From NCBI RefSeq assembly GCF_030063135.1, contig NZ_JASISO010000010.1:25876-89875 (forward strand): a stretch of 64,000 nucleotides of DNA, written 5' to 3'. Of the stretch, positions 7,565 through 15,134 are shown piece after piece (the stretch's first letter is position 1; each line of letters begins with the position of its first letter). The notes below the pieces were generated by a model. That model was not told where the DNA came from. It ran no database searches and saw only the letters and a list, made by a program, of their open reading frames with translations. Position numbers and translations under genes: made by a program. This DNA comes from Streptomyces sp. G-G2 (GTDB lineage: Bacteria; Actinomycetota; Actinomycetes; Streptomycetales; Streptomycetaceae).

Positions 7565-8251
7565 TCAGACTGGTAGGACTTCCCTACGGTACGCCCGGTC
7601 GCCCGCGAGGGCTCCGTCAGCCAGCAGGTACTGCGCCGCCGCGTAGGTCGCCATCACCCAGAAGTCGGGCCGGGGCAGCTGCGGCCAGTCGGCGACCCCG
7701 GTGGCGATGAGCGTGTCCGAGAGCAGGAACAGCGCCCCGCCGAGCCCGGCCCGCCACCCCAGCGCCCCGGACCGCCAGGCCATCGCGGTGAGCAGGAGGC
7801 TGTATCCGGCGACCGGGATCCGCAGCTCCGGCGGGAGGTCCCCCCAGAGCAGGCAGACGGTGGTGACGAGCGCGAGGGCGTACGCCGCCCCGGCGAGCGG
7901 GGAGACCGGGCGCCGCCCGAAGAGCACCAGGTAGCAGACGTGCCCGAGGGCGAAGGAGCCCATGCCGAGGAGGAAGGCGGGGTCGGCGTCGAAGAGCAGC
8001 GCCAGGTCTCCGCCCCAGCCGAAGAGCAGGGCGCCGGTCAGCGCGCGGGGGGCGCGGCGGCTGAGCGCGTACCCGATGAGCAGGGGCATCAGCAGGGGCT
8101 TGAAGACCTGGTGCCCGGTCTCCCACCCGGCGAGCAGGGAGCCCAGGTCGGCGGCGGTGGCGACGACGAACCCGGCCAGGGCGGCGCGGCCCAGGGCGGC
8201 GCGGCGCGGCGCGGGACGGGGTACGGGGCGCGGCGCGGCCGGGGCGCTCAC
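7565..8251 (-). CDS. Lysoplasmalogenase (YhhN family)
   Basis: A 228-residue polytopic membrane protein with about eight hydrophobic segments. The motif series KPLLMPLLIGYAL, LLFGWGGDLALLF and FLLSDTLIA is that of the YhhN/TMEM86 family, whose animal members hydrolyse the vinyl-ether bond of lysoplasmalogens. I start it at the GTG at 8251, which overlaps the stop of the sterol-desaturase gene by 4 nt, so the two are co-translated. Bacterial substrates are uncertain. The pairing suggests a joint role in membrane lipid modification. Confidence 0.88.
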   Translation of the reverse strand: MSAPAAPRPVPRPAPRRAALGRAALAGFVVATAADLGSLLAGWETGHQVFKPLLMPLLIGYALSRRAPRALTGALLFGWGGDLALLFDADPAFLLGMGSFALGHVCYLVLFGRRPVSPLAGAAYALALVTTVCLLWGDLPPELRIPVAGYSLLLTAMAWRSGALGWRAGLGGALFLLSDTLIATGVADWPQLPRPDFWVMATYAAAQYLLADGALAGDRAYRREVLPV

Positions 8252-9192
8252 GCGGCGGGCTCGGCGGCGCCGGCGGTGGCCGTGACCACGGGAGCGGCGG
8301 GAGCGGCGGGAGCCGCAAGAGCCGCAAGAGCCGCAGGAGCCGCGGGAGCGGGCACGGCGGCGCCGGCGGGCTGCCAGCCCGGGCCGCCGAAGACCCGCCC
8401 GGCCCGCTCGCGCCAGCTGGTGGCGGCCCGTACGTCCCGGGCGATGGCGGCGTACTCGTGGGTGGCCACGCGCAGCGGGTTGTAGGTCTCGATGTTCTTG
8501 GTGAGGCCGAACTCGGGCCGCTCGGTCTCCCCCACCCAGGAACCGAACATCCGGTCCCAGACGATCAGGATCCCGGCGAAGTTGCGGTCCAGGTAGCCGC
8601 CCTGCGAGGCGTGGTGGACCCGGTGGTGGGAGGGGGTGTTGAAGACGTACTCGACGGCGCGGGGCAGCTTGCCGATGCGCTCGGTGTGGATCCAGAACTG
8701 GTAGACGAGGTTGACCGAGTAGCAGAAGGCCACGGCGGCGGGGTGGACGCCCAGCGCGATCATCGGCAGGTAGAACGGCCAGGAGGTGGCGCTCGTCCAG
8801 GGCTGGCGCAGGGCGGTGGTGAGGTTGAACTTGCGGCTGCTGTGGTGCACCACGTGGCAGGCCCACAGGACACGGATGACGTGGTGCCCGCGGTGCTGCC
8901 AGTAGTAGAGGAAGTCCTGGGCGAGCAGCATCAGCGGAACCGTCCACCACAGCACGGGCACGCGCAGCGGGGTGAGTTCGTAGACCGCCGTGTAGATCGC
9001 GACGGTCGGGATCTTCCACAGCAGGTCGAAGACGAGGCTGCCCAGGCCCATGCCCACGCTGGTCACGGCGTCCTTGGCCGCGTACCCGGCGGCGTCCTCG
9101 TCGGGATGGAGCCGGTAGCTCACCAGCTCGATGACCGTGAGCAGCACGAAGGCAGGTATGGACCACAGCACGACATTGGGCAGGTTCGGCAT
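8248..9192 (-). CDS. Sterol desaturase/fatty acid hydroxylase family protein
   Basis: A 314-residue membrane di-iron oxygenase. The histidine boxes are clear: HRGHH at 100-104, HVVHH at 113-117 and HHRVHH at 189-194, on a scaffold of hydrophobic segments. Family members hydroxylate or desaturate sterols, fatty acids or carotenoids, or cleave ether lipids; alkylglycerol monooxygenase belongs here. Coupling to a lysoplasmalogenase-like gene makes an ether-lipid or membrane-lipid role attractive, but this is inference. The last ~45 residues are an Ala/Pro low-complexity tail encoded by short DNA repeats near 8280-8355 and are probably dispensable. Confidence 0.9.
   Translation of the reverse strand: MPNLPNVVLWSIPAFVLLTVIELVSYRLHPDEDAAGYAAKDAVTSVGMGLGSLVFDLLWKIPTVAIYTAVYELTPLRVPVLWWTVPLMLLAQDFLYYWQHRGHHVIRVLWACHVVHHSSRKFNLTTALRQPWTSATSWPFYLPMIALGVHPAAVAFCYSVNLVYQFWIHTERIGKLPRAVEYVFNTPSHHRVHHASQGGYLDRNFAGILIVWDRMFGSWVGETERPEFGLTKNIETYNPLRVATHEYAAIARDVRAATSWRERAGRVFGGPGWQPAGAAVPAPAAPAALAALAAPAAPAAPVVTATAGAAEPAA
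8278..8355. repeat. Short tandem repeats encoding an Ala-rich tail
   Basis: Reiterated 9-bp units (GAGCCGCAA and GAGCGGCGG variants) at the 3' end of the sterol-desaturase gene encode runs of AAP/AL. The array is likely prone to slippage and variable between strains. Confidence 0.6.
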
Positions 9193-9236
9193 GTCCGCAC
9201 CATAGAGGCGCGTTCCACCGGCCCGCTAGATGTTGT

Positions 9237-9248
9237 TACCGATCGGTA
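9237..9248. promoter_or_regulatory. 12-bp perfect palindrome in a divergent promoter region
   Basis: TACCGATCGGTA lies between the divergent sterol-desaturase and NACHT genes, flanked by two direct GTTACC copies (9235 and about 9257). It could be an operator, but no adjacent regulator gene exists. Confidence 0.35.
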
Positions 9249-9305
9249 TTCAACGGTGTTACCCGCGGTACCGGAGATACTGTCCGACCGGGGCGGGGAG
9301 GCCAT

Positions 9306-12300
9306 GTGAGCGGTTTAGAGACGGTTCTCTTGAAAGTGGCGGGCACGGCGCTGGGCGCGCTCGTCAAAACGCTGCTGGCGCAGGCTCCGGGGGCGGGCAC
9401 CACGGCCGATCCGGCCCGCCCGGCCCCGCGCTGGCGCCGCCCGGCGGAACTCGGCGAGGCGGAACTGGCCCGCCTCACCACCACCCTCGCCGGTCGCCTG
9501 CACACCCCCGGCTCCCGGCTCCCCGAGCACGAACGGCTGGCCGCGCTGGACGCCGTACAGGACGCCTTCGCCGGGCTCGGCGCACTGGACCCGGACGCCC
9601 TGTTCGCGCTGGACCTCGACCCGGACCGGCTCGCCGCGGCGCTGCCCGGCCCGCCGCCGGGCCTGGGCGACGCGGCGCGGGCACTCTACGGGGAGCTGCT
9701 GGAACTGTGCTGCCGGCACGCCGTCGAGTACGTCACCACCCTGCCGGGCTTCGGCGCCCGCGCGGACCTGGAGGTGATCCGGCGCACCGGGGACCTGGGC
9801 CGCGAGCTGGACGCCGTACGGCCGGGCTGGGTCCCGCGCCCGGATCGGCGGCGGCGGACTTCGAGGAGCGGTACGCGGCCTACATCGCGGTGGCCCACGG
9901 GCGCCTGGAGCTGTACGGGCTGACCTTCAGCCAGGCCCGCCAGGATTGGCCGCTGGACCTGGCCTACATCAGCCTCTCGGTCAGCGGCGACCAGCCGTAC
10001 GAGGAGCTGGGGCGGCAGGCGGTGACCACCGTCGAGACGGCGCTGAGCACCTCCGGACGCGTCCTGCTGCGCGGGCCCGCCGGATCGGGCAAGAGCACCC
10101 TCGTCCAGTGGCTGGCGCTGAACGCGGCCCGCCGCAGCTTCGGCCCGGAACTGCGCGAGCTCAACGCCTACGTACCCTTCGTCCTGCGGCTGCGCTCCTT
10201 CACCTCGCGCGACGCGCTGCCGATGCCGGAGGACTTCCTGCGCGCCTGCGGGATACCGCTCCACGGGGAGGCGCCGCCCGGCTGGGTCAGTTCGGTGCTG
10301 CGCGCCGGACGGGCCCTGATCCTGATCGACGGGGTCGACGAGGTACCGCAGCGGCTGCGCAACCGGACCGAGGCGTGGATCTGGTCGCTGGTCGACGCCT
10401 ATCCCGAGGCCCGGTACATCGTCACCACCAGGCCCTCCGCGGTGCGCGACGACTGGCTCTCGGGCCACGCCTTCGCCCCCATGTCCCTGCTGCCGATGGA
10501 ACGCAAGGACGTCCAGGCGTTCCTGACGCACTGGCACGACGCGGCGCGCGCGGAATGCGGATCCGCCGAGGGCCGGGCCGAACTGGACCGCTACGAGACC
10601 TCGCTGGGCCAGGCGGTGCGGCTGCGCCGGGACCTCGGCAGGCTCGCCACCAACCCCCTGATGTGCGCGCTGCTGTGCGCGCTGAACCGGGACCGGCACA
10701 TGCACCTGCCGCGCGCCCGCAAGGAGTTGTACGACGCCGCCCTCGACATGCTGCTCGTCCGCCGGGACAGCGAACGGGAGATCATCAGCGTCGAGGGGGT
10801 CTACCTCACCCGGGACGAGCAGACCCTGCTGCTCCAGCGGCTCGCCTACTGGCTGATCCGCAACGGCCAGGTCGAGGCGGACTGCGACGAGGCCGTGGAG
10901 ATGGTCGACGAGTGGCTGGACGCCATGCCGCAGGCCCGGGCCCAGGGCACTGCCCGGCAGGTCTTCCGGCACCTGCTGATCCGCAGCGGCCTGCTGCGCG
11001 AGCCGGTCCCGGGCTCGGTGCACTTCGTCCACCGCACCTTCCGCGACTACCTGGGCGCCAAGGCGGCCGTCGAGGCGCGGGACTTCGGCGTCCTGGTCCG
11101 CAACGCCCACGAGGACGACTGGTACGACGTCATCCGGATGGCGGTCGGTCACGCCCGGCCCGACGAACGGGCCCGGCTGCTGCGCCAGTTGCTGCGCCGG
11201 GCCGACCGCGCCAAACGGGACAGCAGCCGGCTGGTGCTGCTCGCGGCCGCCTGCCTGGAGCACGCCCCGGAACTGGACCCGGAGGTGTGGCGGGAGGTGG
11301 AGACCCGCACCGCCCACCTGCTGCCGCCGCATTCGGTGCGCCAGGCCGAGGAACTGGCCAAGGCGGGCGAGCTGGTCCTGGAGCTGCTGCCGGAGCCCGC
11401 GGACCTCACCGAGGCCGAGGCGGCCGCGACGATCCGCACGGCGGCCCTGGTCGGCGGGGACCGGGCGCTCCAGGTGATCGCCGGCTTCCGGCGGGACGAC
11501 CGCTATGAGGTGAGCCACGAGATCTGCGGCTCGTGGGGCCTCTTCCCCACCGAGGACTTCGCGGACGCGGTGCTCGCCGACGCCCCGGTCCGCAGCGCGC
11601 ACCTGCACGTCAGCACCCCCGAGCAGCTGGCCGCCTTCGAACGGCTCCCGCACATCCGGCGGCTCCACCTCACCTGGGACAAGGAGGTGCCGCCGGCCGT
11701 CACCGCACGCCGTGACCTGGAATGGCTGGTCCTGCACCGCAGTCCCGGGCTGACCGGCCTCTCGGAGCTGACGGACCTCCCCGCGCTGCGCCACCTCGGG
11801 GTCTACGACTGCCCGAACCTCACCGGCATCGAGGCGGTCGGCGACATACCGGCGGACAGCCTCGCCTTCGGCTACCTTCGGGACGGCCTCTCGCTCGCCC
11901 CGCTGGCCGAGGTCACCGGGCTGCGCTCGCTCGTCATCGGGTACGAGCCCCGGGAGCGCCGGATCGGGGACGTCCCGGCCGCCGGGACCCTGACCTCGCT
12001 GTCGCTGTGGCAGGGCGCCCGCGGGCTGACCCTGGACGGGATCGACCGCTGGCCGGGGGTGGAGAGCCTGACGATCGCCGGGCCCTGGCAGTACGGGCAG
12101 CTGGTCGCCCGGCTGCCGCTGGGCGGGCTGCGGAGCCTGGAGATCCGGCACACCGCGCCGGTGTCGGTCGCCGCCCTCACCCCGTACCGCTGGCTGACCG
12201 GGCTGCACCTGCGCCGCTGCGGGATCGAGGGCACGCTGGAGGCGGTCGCCGAGTTCCCGGCGCTGCGGCGGCTGACGCTGACCGAGTGCTCCGGCCCGGT

Positions 12301-12415
12301 CGACCTGTCCCCGCTCGCGGCCCTGGACGGGCTGACCGTGGAGCTGGACCGGCGCACCACCTTCACCGGGGCGGAGCGGATCCCGCCCGAGCGGCTCACG
12401 TACGTCGGGAACTGA
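9306..12415 (+). pseudogene. NACHT NTPase with leucine-rich repeats (NLR-like), frameshifted
   Basis: The N-terminal ~175 residues (GTG at 9306, GGGGAG 5 nt upstream) form a helical NACHT-N-terminal-type domain in one frame. From about 9826 the protein continues one base out of register to 12415. The second part has Walker A GPAGSGKST (10072-10098), Walker B LILIDGVDEVP (10315-10347), the winged-helix/helical region of a STAND NTPase, and at least six leucine-rich repeats (about 11580-12400). Restoring one base near 9824 gives a ~1,036-residue NLR-like protein. Bacterial NACHT proteins act in antiphage defence. The break could be a real 1-bp deletion or a sequencing error; internal starts could still make a truncated protein. 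Confidence 0.8.
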
Positions 12416-12540
12416 CCGCCCCGCCCGAGCGGCTCGGGTACGTCGGGAACTGACCGCCCCGGCCGGGCGGCTCGGGTACGTCGGGAACTGACCGCCCCGG
12501 CCGGGCGGCTCGGGTACGTCGGGAACTGACCGCCCCGGCC
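12389..12540. repeat. Four 38-bp tandem repeats at the 3' end of the NACHT gene
   Basis: Units start at 12389, 12427, 12465 and 12503. Unit 1 is the last codons and stop of the NACHT gene; units 2-4 are near-perfect copies outside the gene that each retain the YVGN-stop coding sequence. Each junction can fold as CCGCCC-(5 nt)-GGGCGG, so the array may also terminate transcription. A related G/C-rich repeat continues to about 12600. Nothing else is seen before the next gene at 12613. Confidence 0.85.
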
Positions 12541-12612
12541 GGGCCGCACGGGTGGGGCGTACCCGGGCGGCTCGGGTGGGGCGCACCCGGGCCGCCCGGC
12601 GGGGAGGCGCCG

Positions 12613-13845
12613 CTACCAGACGCGGACGGAGGCGCCGCGGGCGAAGGCCGGGCTGGTGGCCTGCGGCGGGATCTCCGTCAGGGGCTCGGCGACCTCCGAG
12701 ACGAGCGGGCCGTGCTGGGCGGCCAGCTTGTCCAGGAAGGGCAGGTCGAACCCGTAGACCCGGGCCGCGTTGCCGCCGACCATGGCCGCGACCTCCTCCC
12801 GGGGCAGGCCCGCGTAGGCGATGCGCAGCCCTTCCCGGGAGTAGGGCGTGGTGCCCTCGTCATGGGGGTAGTCGCTGCCCCACATGATCTTGTCGAGGCC
12901 GATCCGGTCGCGCAGCGGCACCTCGTGGGGGCGCATGAAGCTCGCGCCCACGAAGCAGTTGTCCCGCCAGACCTCGCTGGGGCCCTTGCCCATCGACTCC
13001 GCGAGGCCAGCGCCGAACTTGGACTCGGCGGTGGTGGCCCGGGCGGCCGCGTTCACCAGACGGGCGTGGTAGTAGTCCAGCATGTCCAGGACGCCCGGGA
13101 TCCAGCCGGAGCCCTGCTCCGTGAGGACCAGTGTGAGGTCCGGGTGACGGCGGAAGGCACCGCCGAAGACGAGGTGCCACAGGGCGCGGTGGGAGAACCA
13201 GGTGGTCTCCACCATGAAGACGGCCCGGGCCGCCGGTTCGTCGCCCAGCGGCGGTGAGGCCGAGCCGCCGTGGTGGTTGACCGGCACGTCCAGTTCCGCG
13301 CAGACCGCCCACAAGGGGTCGTACACCTGTGAGTACAGCTCCGGGACACCGCTGCCCGGCGGGGCGCCCGGCAGCAGGATCCCGCCCGTGAGCCCGGCCT
13401 CCTTGGTGCGCCGGATCTCCCGGACCGCCTCCTCGACGTCGTTCAGCAGGATCTGCCCCACTCCGGCCCGGCGCCCGGGGGCGTCCGCGCAGAAGTCGGC
13501 GAGCCAGCGGTTGTGCGCCCGCAGCCCGGCCCAGCGGAGCTGGAACTCGGCGGCGGTCGGGGGCGGCGCCATCAGGGCGGTGCTGGGGAAGAAGGGCGGG
13601 ATGGTGTTCGGGAAGAGGACTTCCGCGACGATCCCGTCCGCCTCCAGGTCGCTCAGGCGCCGCCGGGAGTTCCAGTTCCGGTCGGCGGTGTCGGCCAGGA
13701 GGTCCTCGTACGGATTGACGTAGGCGGCGGCCCAGGCGTCGAACTCCTCGTGGTGGCGCTCCTCCAGGTACGGCTTGTAGTCCAGCAGGTCGGCGCCCGC
13801 GTGGCAGTCCGCCGAGATGACCGTGTAGCGGTCGTCGGACGTCAC
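12613..13845 (-). CDS. Amidohydrolase-2 family protein (first paralogue)
   Basis: A 410-residue metal-dependent hydrolase of the amidohydrolase-2 family, related to decarboxylases such as ACMSD. The metal motif SADCHAG is at residues 11-17 (D13, H15). A metal or catalytic Asp lies in MWGSDYPHDEG near residue 325, and a His in VNHHGG mid-chain. The GTG start at 13845 overlaps the stop of the upstream paralogue by 4 nt. It is last in a four-gene operon with a decarboxylase-like protein and an SDR. The substrate is unknown; hydrolysis or non-oxidative decarboxylation of an aromatic or cyclic acid would fit. Confidence 0.88.
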   Translation of the reverse strand: MTSDDRYTVISADCHAGADLLDYKPYLEERHHEEFDAWAAAYVNPYEDLLADTADRNWNSRRRLSDLEADGIVAEVLFPNTIPPFFPSTALMAPPPTAAEFQLRWAGLRAHNRWLADFCADAPGRRAGVGQILLNDVEEAVREIRRTKEAGLTGGILLPGAPPGSGVPELYSQVYDPLWAVCAELDVPVNHHGGSASPPLGDEPAARAVFMVETTWFSHRALWHLVFGGAFRRHPDLTLVLTEQGSGWIPGVLDMLDYYHARLVNAAARATTAESKFGAGLAESMGKGPSEVWRDNCFVGASFMRPHEVPLRDRIGLDKIMWGSDYPHDEGTTPYSREGLRIAYAGLPREEVAAMVGGNAARVYGFDLPFLDKLAAQHGPLVSEVAEPLTEIPPQATSPAFARGASVRVW

Positions 13846-15134
13846 TGGTCCACCCCCAGCACCGGGAAGTCGCTCCCGGTCAGCCAGTGGCGGCCGGTCT
13901 CGCGGGAGCGGGACCAGGAAGCCGCCACGGCCGCCTGGTCGGCGCCCTGGCCCAGTTCGGCCGGGGTCGGGCCGATCCGGCGCGCCAGGGGGCCGAGCGC
14001 GGCGGTGTCGAAGCCGAAGACCTCGGCGGCGGCCAGGCCCAGCATCCGGCGGGTCTCCTCGACCGGGATGTCGTGGAAGGTGTTCTTCAGCCAGGTGCGC
14101 GTGTTCGGCCAGGTGCCCTCGGGGTGCGGGAAGTCCGAGCCCCACAGGATGTTGTCCACGCCGATCTCGTAGCGCTGCGCCAGTTCACGGCGCTTGGTGT
14201 TGGTCGCGCACACGAAGACCTGCCGGTCCAGGTACTCGCTCGGCGGGCGCTTCAGCTCGGCGAACGGCGAGAGCTTCTTGCCGCCGTGCGCGCCGAGGTA
14301 GAGCCGGTCCATGAACCACAGCTGGTTCGGCAGCCACCAGCAGCCGGACTCGGCCACCCCGAACTTCAGGCCGGGGTGGCGCTCGAAGACCCCCGACCAG
14401 AGCAGGAACCACAGGGGGCGGGCGGGCCACCAGGTGACCTCGGAGACGTAGATGCCGAGGTGGTCGCCGTACTCGTGGCGCGGCGCGGCCCCCGAGTGGG
14501 TGACGATCGGCATCGCGGTCTCGGCCGCCGCCGCCCACACGGGGTCGTAACGGCGGTCGTGGTAGGGCGCCTTGTCCACCCACATGGACGGGATCATCAG
14601 GGCCCCGAGTCCGGACTCCTTGGCCCGGTGGATCTCGGCGACGACCCGGTCGGGCTCGCCCGTGATGGGCAGCAGGGCCACCCCGCAGTGCCGCTCTGGG
14701 TTCTGGGAGACGAACTCGGCGAGCCAGCGGTTGTGCGCCTGCGCGCCCGCCATGCCCAGCTCGGGATCCTGGTCGCCGGAGAGCCCGAGGCCCACGCCGA
14801 AGGGCGCGGCGGTCTGGCTGTCGACCGCGTCGGCGTCGGGGAAGACCACCTCGGCGGCCACGCCGTCGCCGTCGAGTTCCTTGAGCCGCTGCGCGGGGTC
14901 CCAGCCGCCGCGCAGCCCTTCCTCGTTGTCGTGGAACCACTTCTCCGCGAAGGCCTCGTTGCGGATGCCCAGGCGGGTGGCCTCCTCGCGGCGGGCGTCG
15001 CGCTGGCCGAGGAACGCGTCGAACTGGGGGTGGAAGCGGCGGTCCAGATAGGGGCGGTACCGCTCGGTGGGCAGGCCCGCGTGGCAGTCGGAGGAGATGA
15101 TCAGATACGGGTCTTCGTACGGTATGTCACTCAC
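13842..15134 (-). CDS. Amidohydrolase-2 family protein (second paralogue)
   Basis: A 430-residue homologue of the preceding protein, sharing the N-terminal motif ISSDCHAG (D16, H18), AHNRWLAEF, a mid-chain VTHSG and LWGSDFPHPEGT near residue 334. The start is a GTG only 11 nt from the SDR stop. The two amidohydrolases are clearly duplicates but have diverged, so they may act on successive intermediates or form a heteromer. The W-rich segments (TWWPARPLW, GCWWLPNQLW) probably line a hydrophobic substrate pocket. Function is inferred only at family level. Confidence 0.88.
   Translation of the reverse strand: MSDIPYEDPYLIISSDCHAGLPTERYRPYLDRRFHPQFDAFLGQRDARREEATRLGIRNEAFAEKWFHDNEEGLRGGWDPAQRLKELDGDGVAAEVVFPDADAVDSQTAAPFGVGLGLSGDQDPELGMAGAQAHNRWLAEFVSQNPERHCGVALLPITGEPDRVVAEIHRAKESGLGALMIPSMWVDKAPYHDRRYDPVWAAAAETAMPIVTHSGAAPRHEYGDHLGIYVSEVTWWPARPLWFLLWSGVFERHPGLKFGVAESGCWWLPNQLWFMDRLYLGAHGGKKLSPFAELKRPPSEYLDRQVFVCATNTKRRELAQRYEIGVDNILWGSDFPHPEGTWPNTRTWLKNTFHDIPVEETRRMLGLAAAEVFGFDTAALGPLARRIGPTPAELGQGADQAAVAASWSRSRETGRHWLTGSDFPVLGVDQ

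Follow-up and report, generated by a model that had tools for sequence, protein, structure and literature searches.

The window, a 64,000-nt stretch of one contig of Streptomyces sp. G-G2, contains a NACHT-leucine-rich repeat (LRR) gene, which we refer to as the receptor, flanked by a divergent hydroxylase gene and a convergent amidohydrolase open frame (Table 1). The receptor is read in two forward-strand frames. An ORF at 9306-9923 (+) begins with GTG and encodes 205 aa, and a second frame is open from 9230 and closes at 12415 (+). The start at 9306 has a matching start residue in the alignment that most orthologs use. The original prediction had proposed an N-terminal helical domain, a NACHT NTPase and LRRs, and we recover that architecture as Pfam NNH1, Pfam NACHT and about 12 repeats. 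The NNH1 match covers residues 8-171 of the 9306 frame and scores 128.7 bits (128.9 bits in a whole-genome search) against a curated cut-off of 27. The NACHT match falls in the second frame, so that in the window NNH1 and NACHT lie in different frames; a single-protein Pfam scan of this second frame reported LRR_4 only below threshold (E 0.0017). NACHT and the C-terminal LRR are in one chain, through their common open frame to 12415. The NACHT domain reads GPAGSGKST and LILIDGVDE, which we take to be the P-loop and a Walker-B-like motif. A NACHT with an intact P-loop and an LRR in the same chain agrees with the proposed parallel to eukaryotic NLRs and to bacterial NACHT proteins.

Table 1. Features of the receptor locus, in window coordinates.
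Feature	Position	Strand	Basis and remarks
Fatty acid hydroxylase family gene, divergent neighbour, one edge of the slot	8248..9192	-	Pfam PF04116, E 6.4e-29
TTACCGATCGGTAT, containing a perfect 12-bp palindrome, in the hydroxylase-receptor intergenic region	9236..9249	.	Exact-match search and locus comparison
NNH1 (NACHT N-terminal helical domain 1), 5' part of the receptor gene	9306..9815	+	Pfam PF22733, E 3.3e-37; frame continues to a stop at 9923
Linker with the frame break in this genome, a single open frame in relatives	9814..9848	+	Homology and third-position GC
NACHT-helical-LRR part, frame uninterrupted, 855 aa from 9848	9848..12415	+	Open frame, Pfam
NACHT NTPase domain	10061..10543	+	Pfam PF05729, E 1.7e-25, residues 72-232
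Helical region joining NACHT to LRR, residues 236-585	10553..11600	+	Conserved alignment block; model helices in the 3' part
Segment matching the part replaced among close relatives	11260..12415	+	5' limit approximate, by alignment transfer from L050/L051; 3' limit about the stop codon
Leucine-rich repeat putative sensor domain, about 12 repeats of 20-23 residues	11600..12412	+	Profile, Pfam, model
38-bp tandem repeat, 4.5 copies	12382..12553	+	Begins in the receptor's last codons and extends beyond the stop
Amidohydrolase (Amidohydro_2) open frame, convergent neighbour, other edge of the slot	12613..14145	-	Pfam PF04909, E 2.2e-36 for 12616-13863; order conserved in many orthologs

The change of frame had been described as an apparent 1-bp frameshift near 9824. 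By third-position GC, frame 0 leads in the blocks between 9306 and 9786 (with one tie) and frame 2 leads from 9906 onward. Both frames therefore look coding with a switch in between, and homology to relatives places that switch in the linker, from about 9814 to 9848. The break itself therefore stands. Its size may differ from 1 bp, because linker length differs among relatives. The gene had been expected to be intact in relatives, unless homologs showed the N-terminal domain to be a separate gene; in 30 of 30 other ortholog loci examined (L009 and L011-L039) the N-terminal part shares an open frame with NACHT, and in none of them is it separate. Since all of these loci keep the two parts in one open frame, the window copy is either broken or misread: either the gene has lately lost its function or the sequence contains an error, and as it reads the chain is interrupted between NNH1 and NACHT.

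We give about equal weight to these two outcomes. An error in sequencing or assembly would leave the gene whole in the organism, and it is compatible with the interpretation of the receptor that we favor below. The source genome is a draft (8.19 Mb in 139 contigs), apart from this single lesion the coding sequence is clean, with third-position GC high on either side of it, and the break sits in a G+C-rich stretch. Against an error, broken or partial copies recur in the ortholog group. Among the 30 loci, L025 has an in-frame stop and L033 a frame break in its C-terminal part, both of them further along the gene, and more degraded copies are the remnants in two genomes (G119 and G005) and a plasmid copy annotated as two genes, all of which we describe below.

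Judged by sequence profile and predicted structure, the LRR domain is real. A family profile of 27 rows matches solved LRR proteins (a Roco protein and internalins) with E down to 2.7e-24. LRR_4 is present at E 0.001 or better in 16 of the 27 rows scanned, and among the proteins scanned singly it is above the Pfam cut-off in L037. An AlphaFold2 model of the region 11165-12412, made with two sequences, has a mean pLDDT of 76, with block means of 76-92 over model residues 161-410, and shows 13 main strands at a spacing of 20-23 residues between residues 146 and 414. When this model was used with Foldseek, it matched internalins, LRRC8 and plant NLRs, although the TM-scores were low (0.46 or less on either length), so these matches support no more specific reading than "LRR-like". 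The proposed C-terminal repeats could have failed structure prediction as an LRR, and the segment does model as one. A full-length NACHT-LRR model was poor (mean pLDDT 52) and we set it aside.

NNH1 is above its cut-off in the same chain as NACHT in 10 of the 17 orthologs that we scanned singly. The other seven (L009, L013 and L015-L019) are a seven-genome clade in which the NNH1 match is absent or, in L019, reaches 26.7 bits against the cut-off of 27. In the alignment that we call A1, 22 of the 27 rows, one of which is the NNH1 row of the window, have an NNH1 match at E 0.001. Long low-complexity linkers, rich in Gly/Ser/Thr or in Pro/Gly, lie upstream of NACHT in L015 and L019, beside the shortened NNH1 region. 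A sequence search for a solved structural relative of NNH1 returned none, with a single match at E 0.72, so we offer no structural suggestion on how NNH1 acts, and its mode of action as given below is a guess.

Relatives of the receptor are present at E 1e-60 in 201 of 295 Streptomyces genomes. The ortholog group is smaller: it comprises 38 of the 295 genomes (our own included) in which the best match scores at least 835 bits over nearly the whole query, and its members are 52-74% identical to the window receptor, the window itself excluded. The next best score below the group is 650 bits at 44% identity, although some shorter, lower-scoring matches reach 53%. We compared the surroundings of 35 of the 37 other orthologs and of L009, giving 36 loci. 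The fatty acid hydroxylase gene adjoins the receptor divergently in 28 of them, and the other eight receptors are elsewhere or in a changed order. The closest group keeps the order ADH, YhhN, hydroxylase, receptor, amidohydrolase, amidohydrolase, SDR, decarboxylase. On this comparison, the orthologs mostly share one fixed slot in the chromosome, and the window receptor gene is one of their alleles.

A match to the hydroxylase at E 1e-60 was found in 103 of 150 genomes (a few of these are only 44-60% identical), and by our reading of both searches the receptor adjoins it in 19 of the 103. We also chose 40 hydroxylase loci from genomes that have no ortholog, two of which end at contig ends; they contained no whole receptor and two remnants. 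One remnant, in G119, is an LRR-only frame of 292 aa (L097) and the other, in G005, is an 83-residue NACHT-like fragment (L107), each beside the hydroxylase gene. In three further genomes (G038, G046 and G054) the slot is empty, with the hydroxylase gene, the palindrome and the amidohydrolase in place and the receptor absent. At L088, in a genome without a receptor, a VIT-family gene (1399-2127; PF01988, E 1.6e-68) lies between hydroxylase and amidohydrolase.

Among 72,556 plasmid records, 15 contain a match to the receptor at E 1e-20. NZ_CP108391.1, which has the best match, is a 616-kb linear Streptomyces plasmid that carries a 57% relative (L135, 6494-9581), annotated as two genes, with transposases near it, one of them downstream.

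Of 150 Streptomyces genomes, 13 have the palindrome listed in Table 1 in its 14-base form, each of them a single time. Twelve of the 13 exact matches are beside the hydroxylase gene, nine with the receptor and three without, and one (G096 contig 3) is located elsewhere. We considered the palindrome as an operator of the receptor and set this aside, because it remains beside the hydroxylase gene where the receptor is missing. It is probably the hydroxylase gene's own element.

Aligned against one another, the loci of several lineages have a receptor whose 3' half (the end of the helical region and the LRR, to about the stop codon) differs blockwise in close relatives that are similar in the 5' half and in the flanks. 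Mean pairwise identity over 25 orthologs falls from 79% in residues 235-420 to 39% in the LRR. In one close pair, L050 (G071) and L051 (G134), which come from two species, NACHT is 96% identical in amino acids. Over 14.5 kb compared in 300-bp windows, DNA identity in this pair is 81-99% in 45 of 48 windows, 41 of them at 91-99%, and the remaining three, all inside the LRR, are 57-61% identical. Identity at fourfold-degenerate sites is 95% for NACHT (125 sites) and 47% for the LRR (75 sites), where 41-44% is expected by chance; synonymous sites in the LRR of this pair are near saturation. The corresponding identities for NACHT versus LRR are 73 versus 51% in L028/L037 and 74 versus 45% in L022/L037. 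Fine mapping of three pairs, two of them with L065 in common, puts the 5' drop in identity at roughly one and the same point, and in these pairs identity recovers at points from the stop codon to about 140 bp past it. The pair L052/L065 diverges again at a second place downstream. Of 81 genomes covered by a search for the nearest relatives of G134, 7 have the receptor, and no pair among them is closer than those already known.

Among the 666 pairs of 37 loci, 24 have a DNA identity of 92% or more in the hydroxylase and amidohydrolase genes. Most of them (21 pairs) lie within the seven-genome clade with the shortened N-terminal domain, and these keep their LRR at 84-94% identity, so exchange is not universal. 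The LRR identity of the other three is 34-40%, and in one of the three, L044/L065, the difference extends over the entire receptor (NACHT 71%). The close pairs that show sensor turnover are all ones with a complete N-terminal signalling domain; we mention a link between the two as a suggestion that comes from one clade. We looked for a near-identical donor LRR and found none, so part of the LRR divergence could be due to fast evolution.

Trees of the two halves disagree. We built quick maximum-likelihood trees from 26 rows, and in the NACHT tree L020 is in a clade with L021 (97) and L028 with L037 (98), whereas in the LRR tree L020 goes with L014 (96) and L021 with L028 (99). In AU tests, whose p values are optimistic because the groups were picked after the conflict had been seen, forcing L020+L021 on the LRR was rejected (p 3.7e-64), as was forcing L020+L014 on NACHT (p 7e-20), and L028+L037 forced on the LRR was rejected more weakly (p 0.011). 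The window gene is a mosaic too: its NACHT groups with L014 (99) and its LRR with L011 and the L009 clade (87), and with the same caution on p values the reverse groupings were rejected (p 0.001 and 0.004).

Some of these observations would also be expected from an ordinary vertically inherited NACHT-LRR gene in which the LRR evolves fast by point mutation, with no block exchange. LRR repeats are loosely constrained, LRR identity declines along with NACHT identity over all 666 pairs, the L009 clade retains its LRR, and the donor LRR that we searched for did not appear. We nevertheless consider point mutation a rather improbable account, given that the synonymous sites of close pairs approach saturation in the LRR and not in NACHT, that the exchange boundary is at about the same place in three pairs, and that the two trees conflict. 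We find it harder still to credit that the diversity is generated within the genome, by a diversity-generating retroelement (DGR) or from donor cassettes elsewhere, even though DGR-diversified NACHT-linked sensors have been proposed in other multicellular bacteria (PMC10907252, available text). The reverse transcriptase profile PF00078, which as a control matched in 3 of 14 genomes, had no match in the window genome, to which the search applied, and a DNA search of the same genome found no second copy of the LRR, save the tail repeats and, at other places, matches 43-80 bases long; a DGR is therefore unlikely there. Searches with the LRR alone, in which the best 8 candidates per genome were scored, bear on where donors may come from. 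The window LRR was found in at least 39 places in 38 of 295 genomes, namely 37 orthologs (our own included), the slot remnant of G119 and one paralog. The LRR of L021 was found in at least 37 places in 37 of the 295 genomes, namely 36 orthologs and the G119 remnant. Among the scored matches this LRR family is almost confined to orthologs, and the donor pool therefore looks allelic, not paralogous. Our reading, held with modest confidence, is that the locus works like a plant resistance-gene allelic series, with one slot, a conserved NNH1-NACHT half, and an LRR half that would be exchanged in blocks between species by homologous recombination.

Variability is also uneven inside the LRR. Over 22 sequences, and in a strand register set by eye from the window sequence and the model, mean entropy is 2.64 bits at exposed LRR strand positions, 2.15 at other polar-consensus positions and 1.69 at hydrophobic or small ones. 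Shifting the mask of exposed positions by one to six residues lowers its entropy every time. We looked for the same excess within the six proteins of the window's LRR type and found none (0.72 versus 0.82), so exposed-position variability fails as a feature within that type.

The receptor had been described, on condition that it is intact in relatives, as a defence-type gene that is not next to other defence genes, and its surroundings bear out the second point: of 10 neighbouring frames, seven have a Pfam match, none of these is to a defence family, and three have no match. PADLOC at E 0.001 had no match among the same 10 frames. For the receptor itself, no PADLOC system model matched beyond the P-loop region (best E 0.0011), and NCBIfam gave no meaningful match. 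We found no relative of the receptor in phage records, nor in viral contigs scanned with two peptide patterns.

STAND proteins in bacteria also act as regulators, and the receptor could be a regulator or a developmental STAND switch, acting for example in hyphal lysis or on envelope lipids together with the adjacent hydroxylase. Its place is mostly constant, with a lipid-type gene as its neighbour in 28 of 36 loci, and none of the 10 neighbouring frames is a recognised defence gene. We regard a regulatory or developmental role as unlikely. The receptor is patchily distributed (38 of 295 genomes), its slot can be empty or hold a remnant, some copies are broken, and the presumed ligand-binding half is swapped, all of which would be expected of conflict more than of housekeeping; the hydroxylase gene also retains its palindrome where the receptor is missing. 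The defence role is our inference. Overall, we think it likely that the receptor is a Streptomyces NLR in which NNH1 is a helical signalling domain, NACHT an ATPase switch and the LRR a sensor, that it is probably anti-phage, and that its sensor is exchanged between alleles by homologous recombination. In such a receptor, the LRR would bind an invader-derived molecule, most likely from phage, and binding would free the NACHT module for ATP binding and oligomerisation. The clustered NNH1 bundles would then bring about death or arrest of the infected cell. Renewal of the sensor would come from homologous recombination with incoming allelic DNA, which could use the conserved NACHT/helical part as one flank and the downstream gene as the other.

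Plant and animal NLRs combine an N-terminal helical signalling domain and an NTPase switch with a sensor made of LRRs, in which the exposed strand positions vary, and in the allelic series of plant NLRs the sensor diversity is among alleles at a single locus. The receptor resembles them in its predicted three-part layout, in exposed strand positions that vary across LRR types, and in the diversity of putative sensors among the alleles of one locus. It differs in that plant NLRs use NB-ARC, whereas the receptor is bacterial with a NACHT, and in that exchange here would be between species and not within an interbreeding population. Among bacterial proteins, the sensors of Avs are TPR-like, whereas the receptor has an LRR and its match to a PADLOC model is confined to the P-loop region. 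What it would have in common with Avs (AVAST) is a STAND NTPase with an N-terminal effector and a variable C-terminal sensor, the organization that the available text of PMC10907252 gives for antiviral STAND proteins, with TPR as an example of the sensor.

Bacterial NACHT-LRR proteins are already known: proteins with NACHT modules and leucine-rich repeats in a single ORF are called bona fide bacterial NLRs in the available text of PMC12169576. The central NACHT module is what the receptor shares with these and with bNACHT proteins as that text describes them, and bNACHT25 has a nuclease N-terminally where the window receptor has NNH1 (PMC12169576). Unlike bNACHT proteins, the Streptomyces receptor is mostly in a fixed chromosomal slot, with an LRR half that would be exchanged between alleles. 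DGR systems of multicellular bacteria, in which an error-prone reverse transcriptase diversifies C-type-lectin domains, are covered in the available text of PMC10907252. The NACHT/nSTAND sensors treated there are similar in being NACHT-linked proteins whose putative sensor is diversified, and they differ in that the window genome has no reverse transcriptase match and in that whole LRR blocks differ here. For another actinobacterial conflict system, recombination on chromosome arms has been suggested to foster variability, and related conflict systems are described in PMC7159879, which makes that suggestion in its available text, and in that of PMC13236601. Our literature search, with most subscription papers outside it, returned no report that we recognised as describing sensor exchange at a fixed bacterial NLR locus. 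Within the literature searched, sensor exchange in a fixed slot appears to be new.

If an NLR in a fixed place does have its LRR alone renewed by recombination, then the allelic logic of plant NLRs exists in bacteria, and in a genus that is genetically tractable. Natural swaps such as L050/L051 would then be domain-swap experiments already done by nature; they hint at the start of the sensor module, and they could tie LRR type to phage trigger. A defence-like receptor without recognised defence neighbours also means that searches based on defence islands could miss such genes. Around the receptor stop codon, some relatives have, as judged by eye, a short inverted repeat in place of the tandem repeat.
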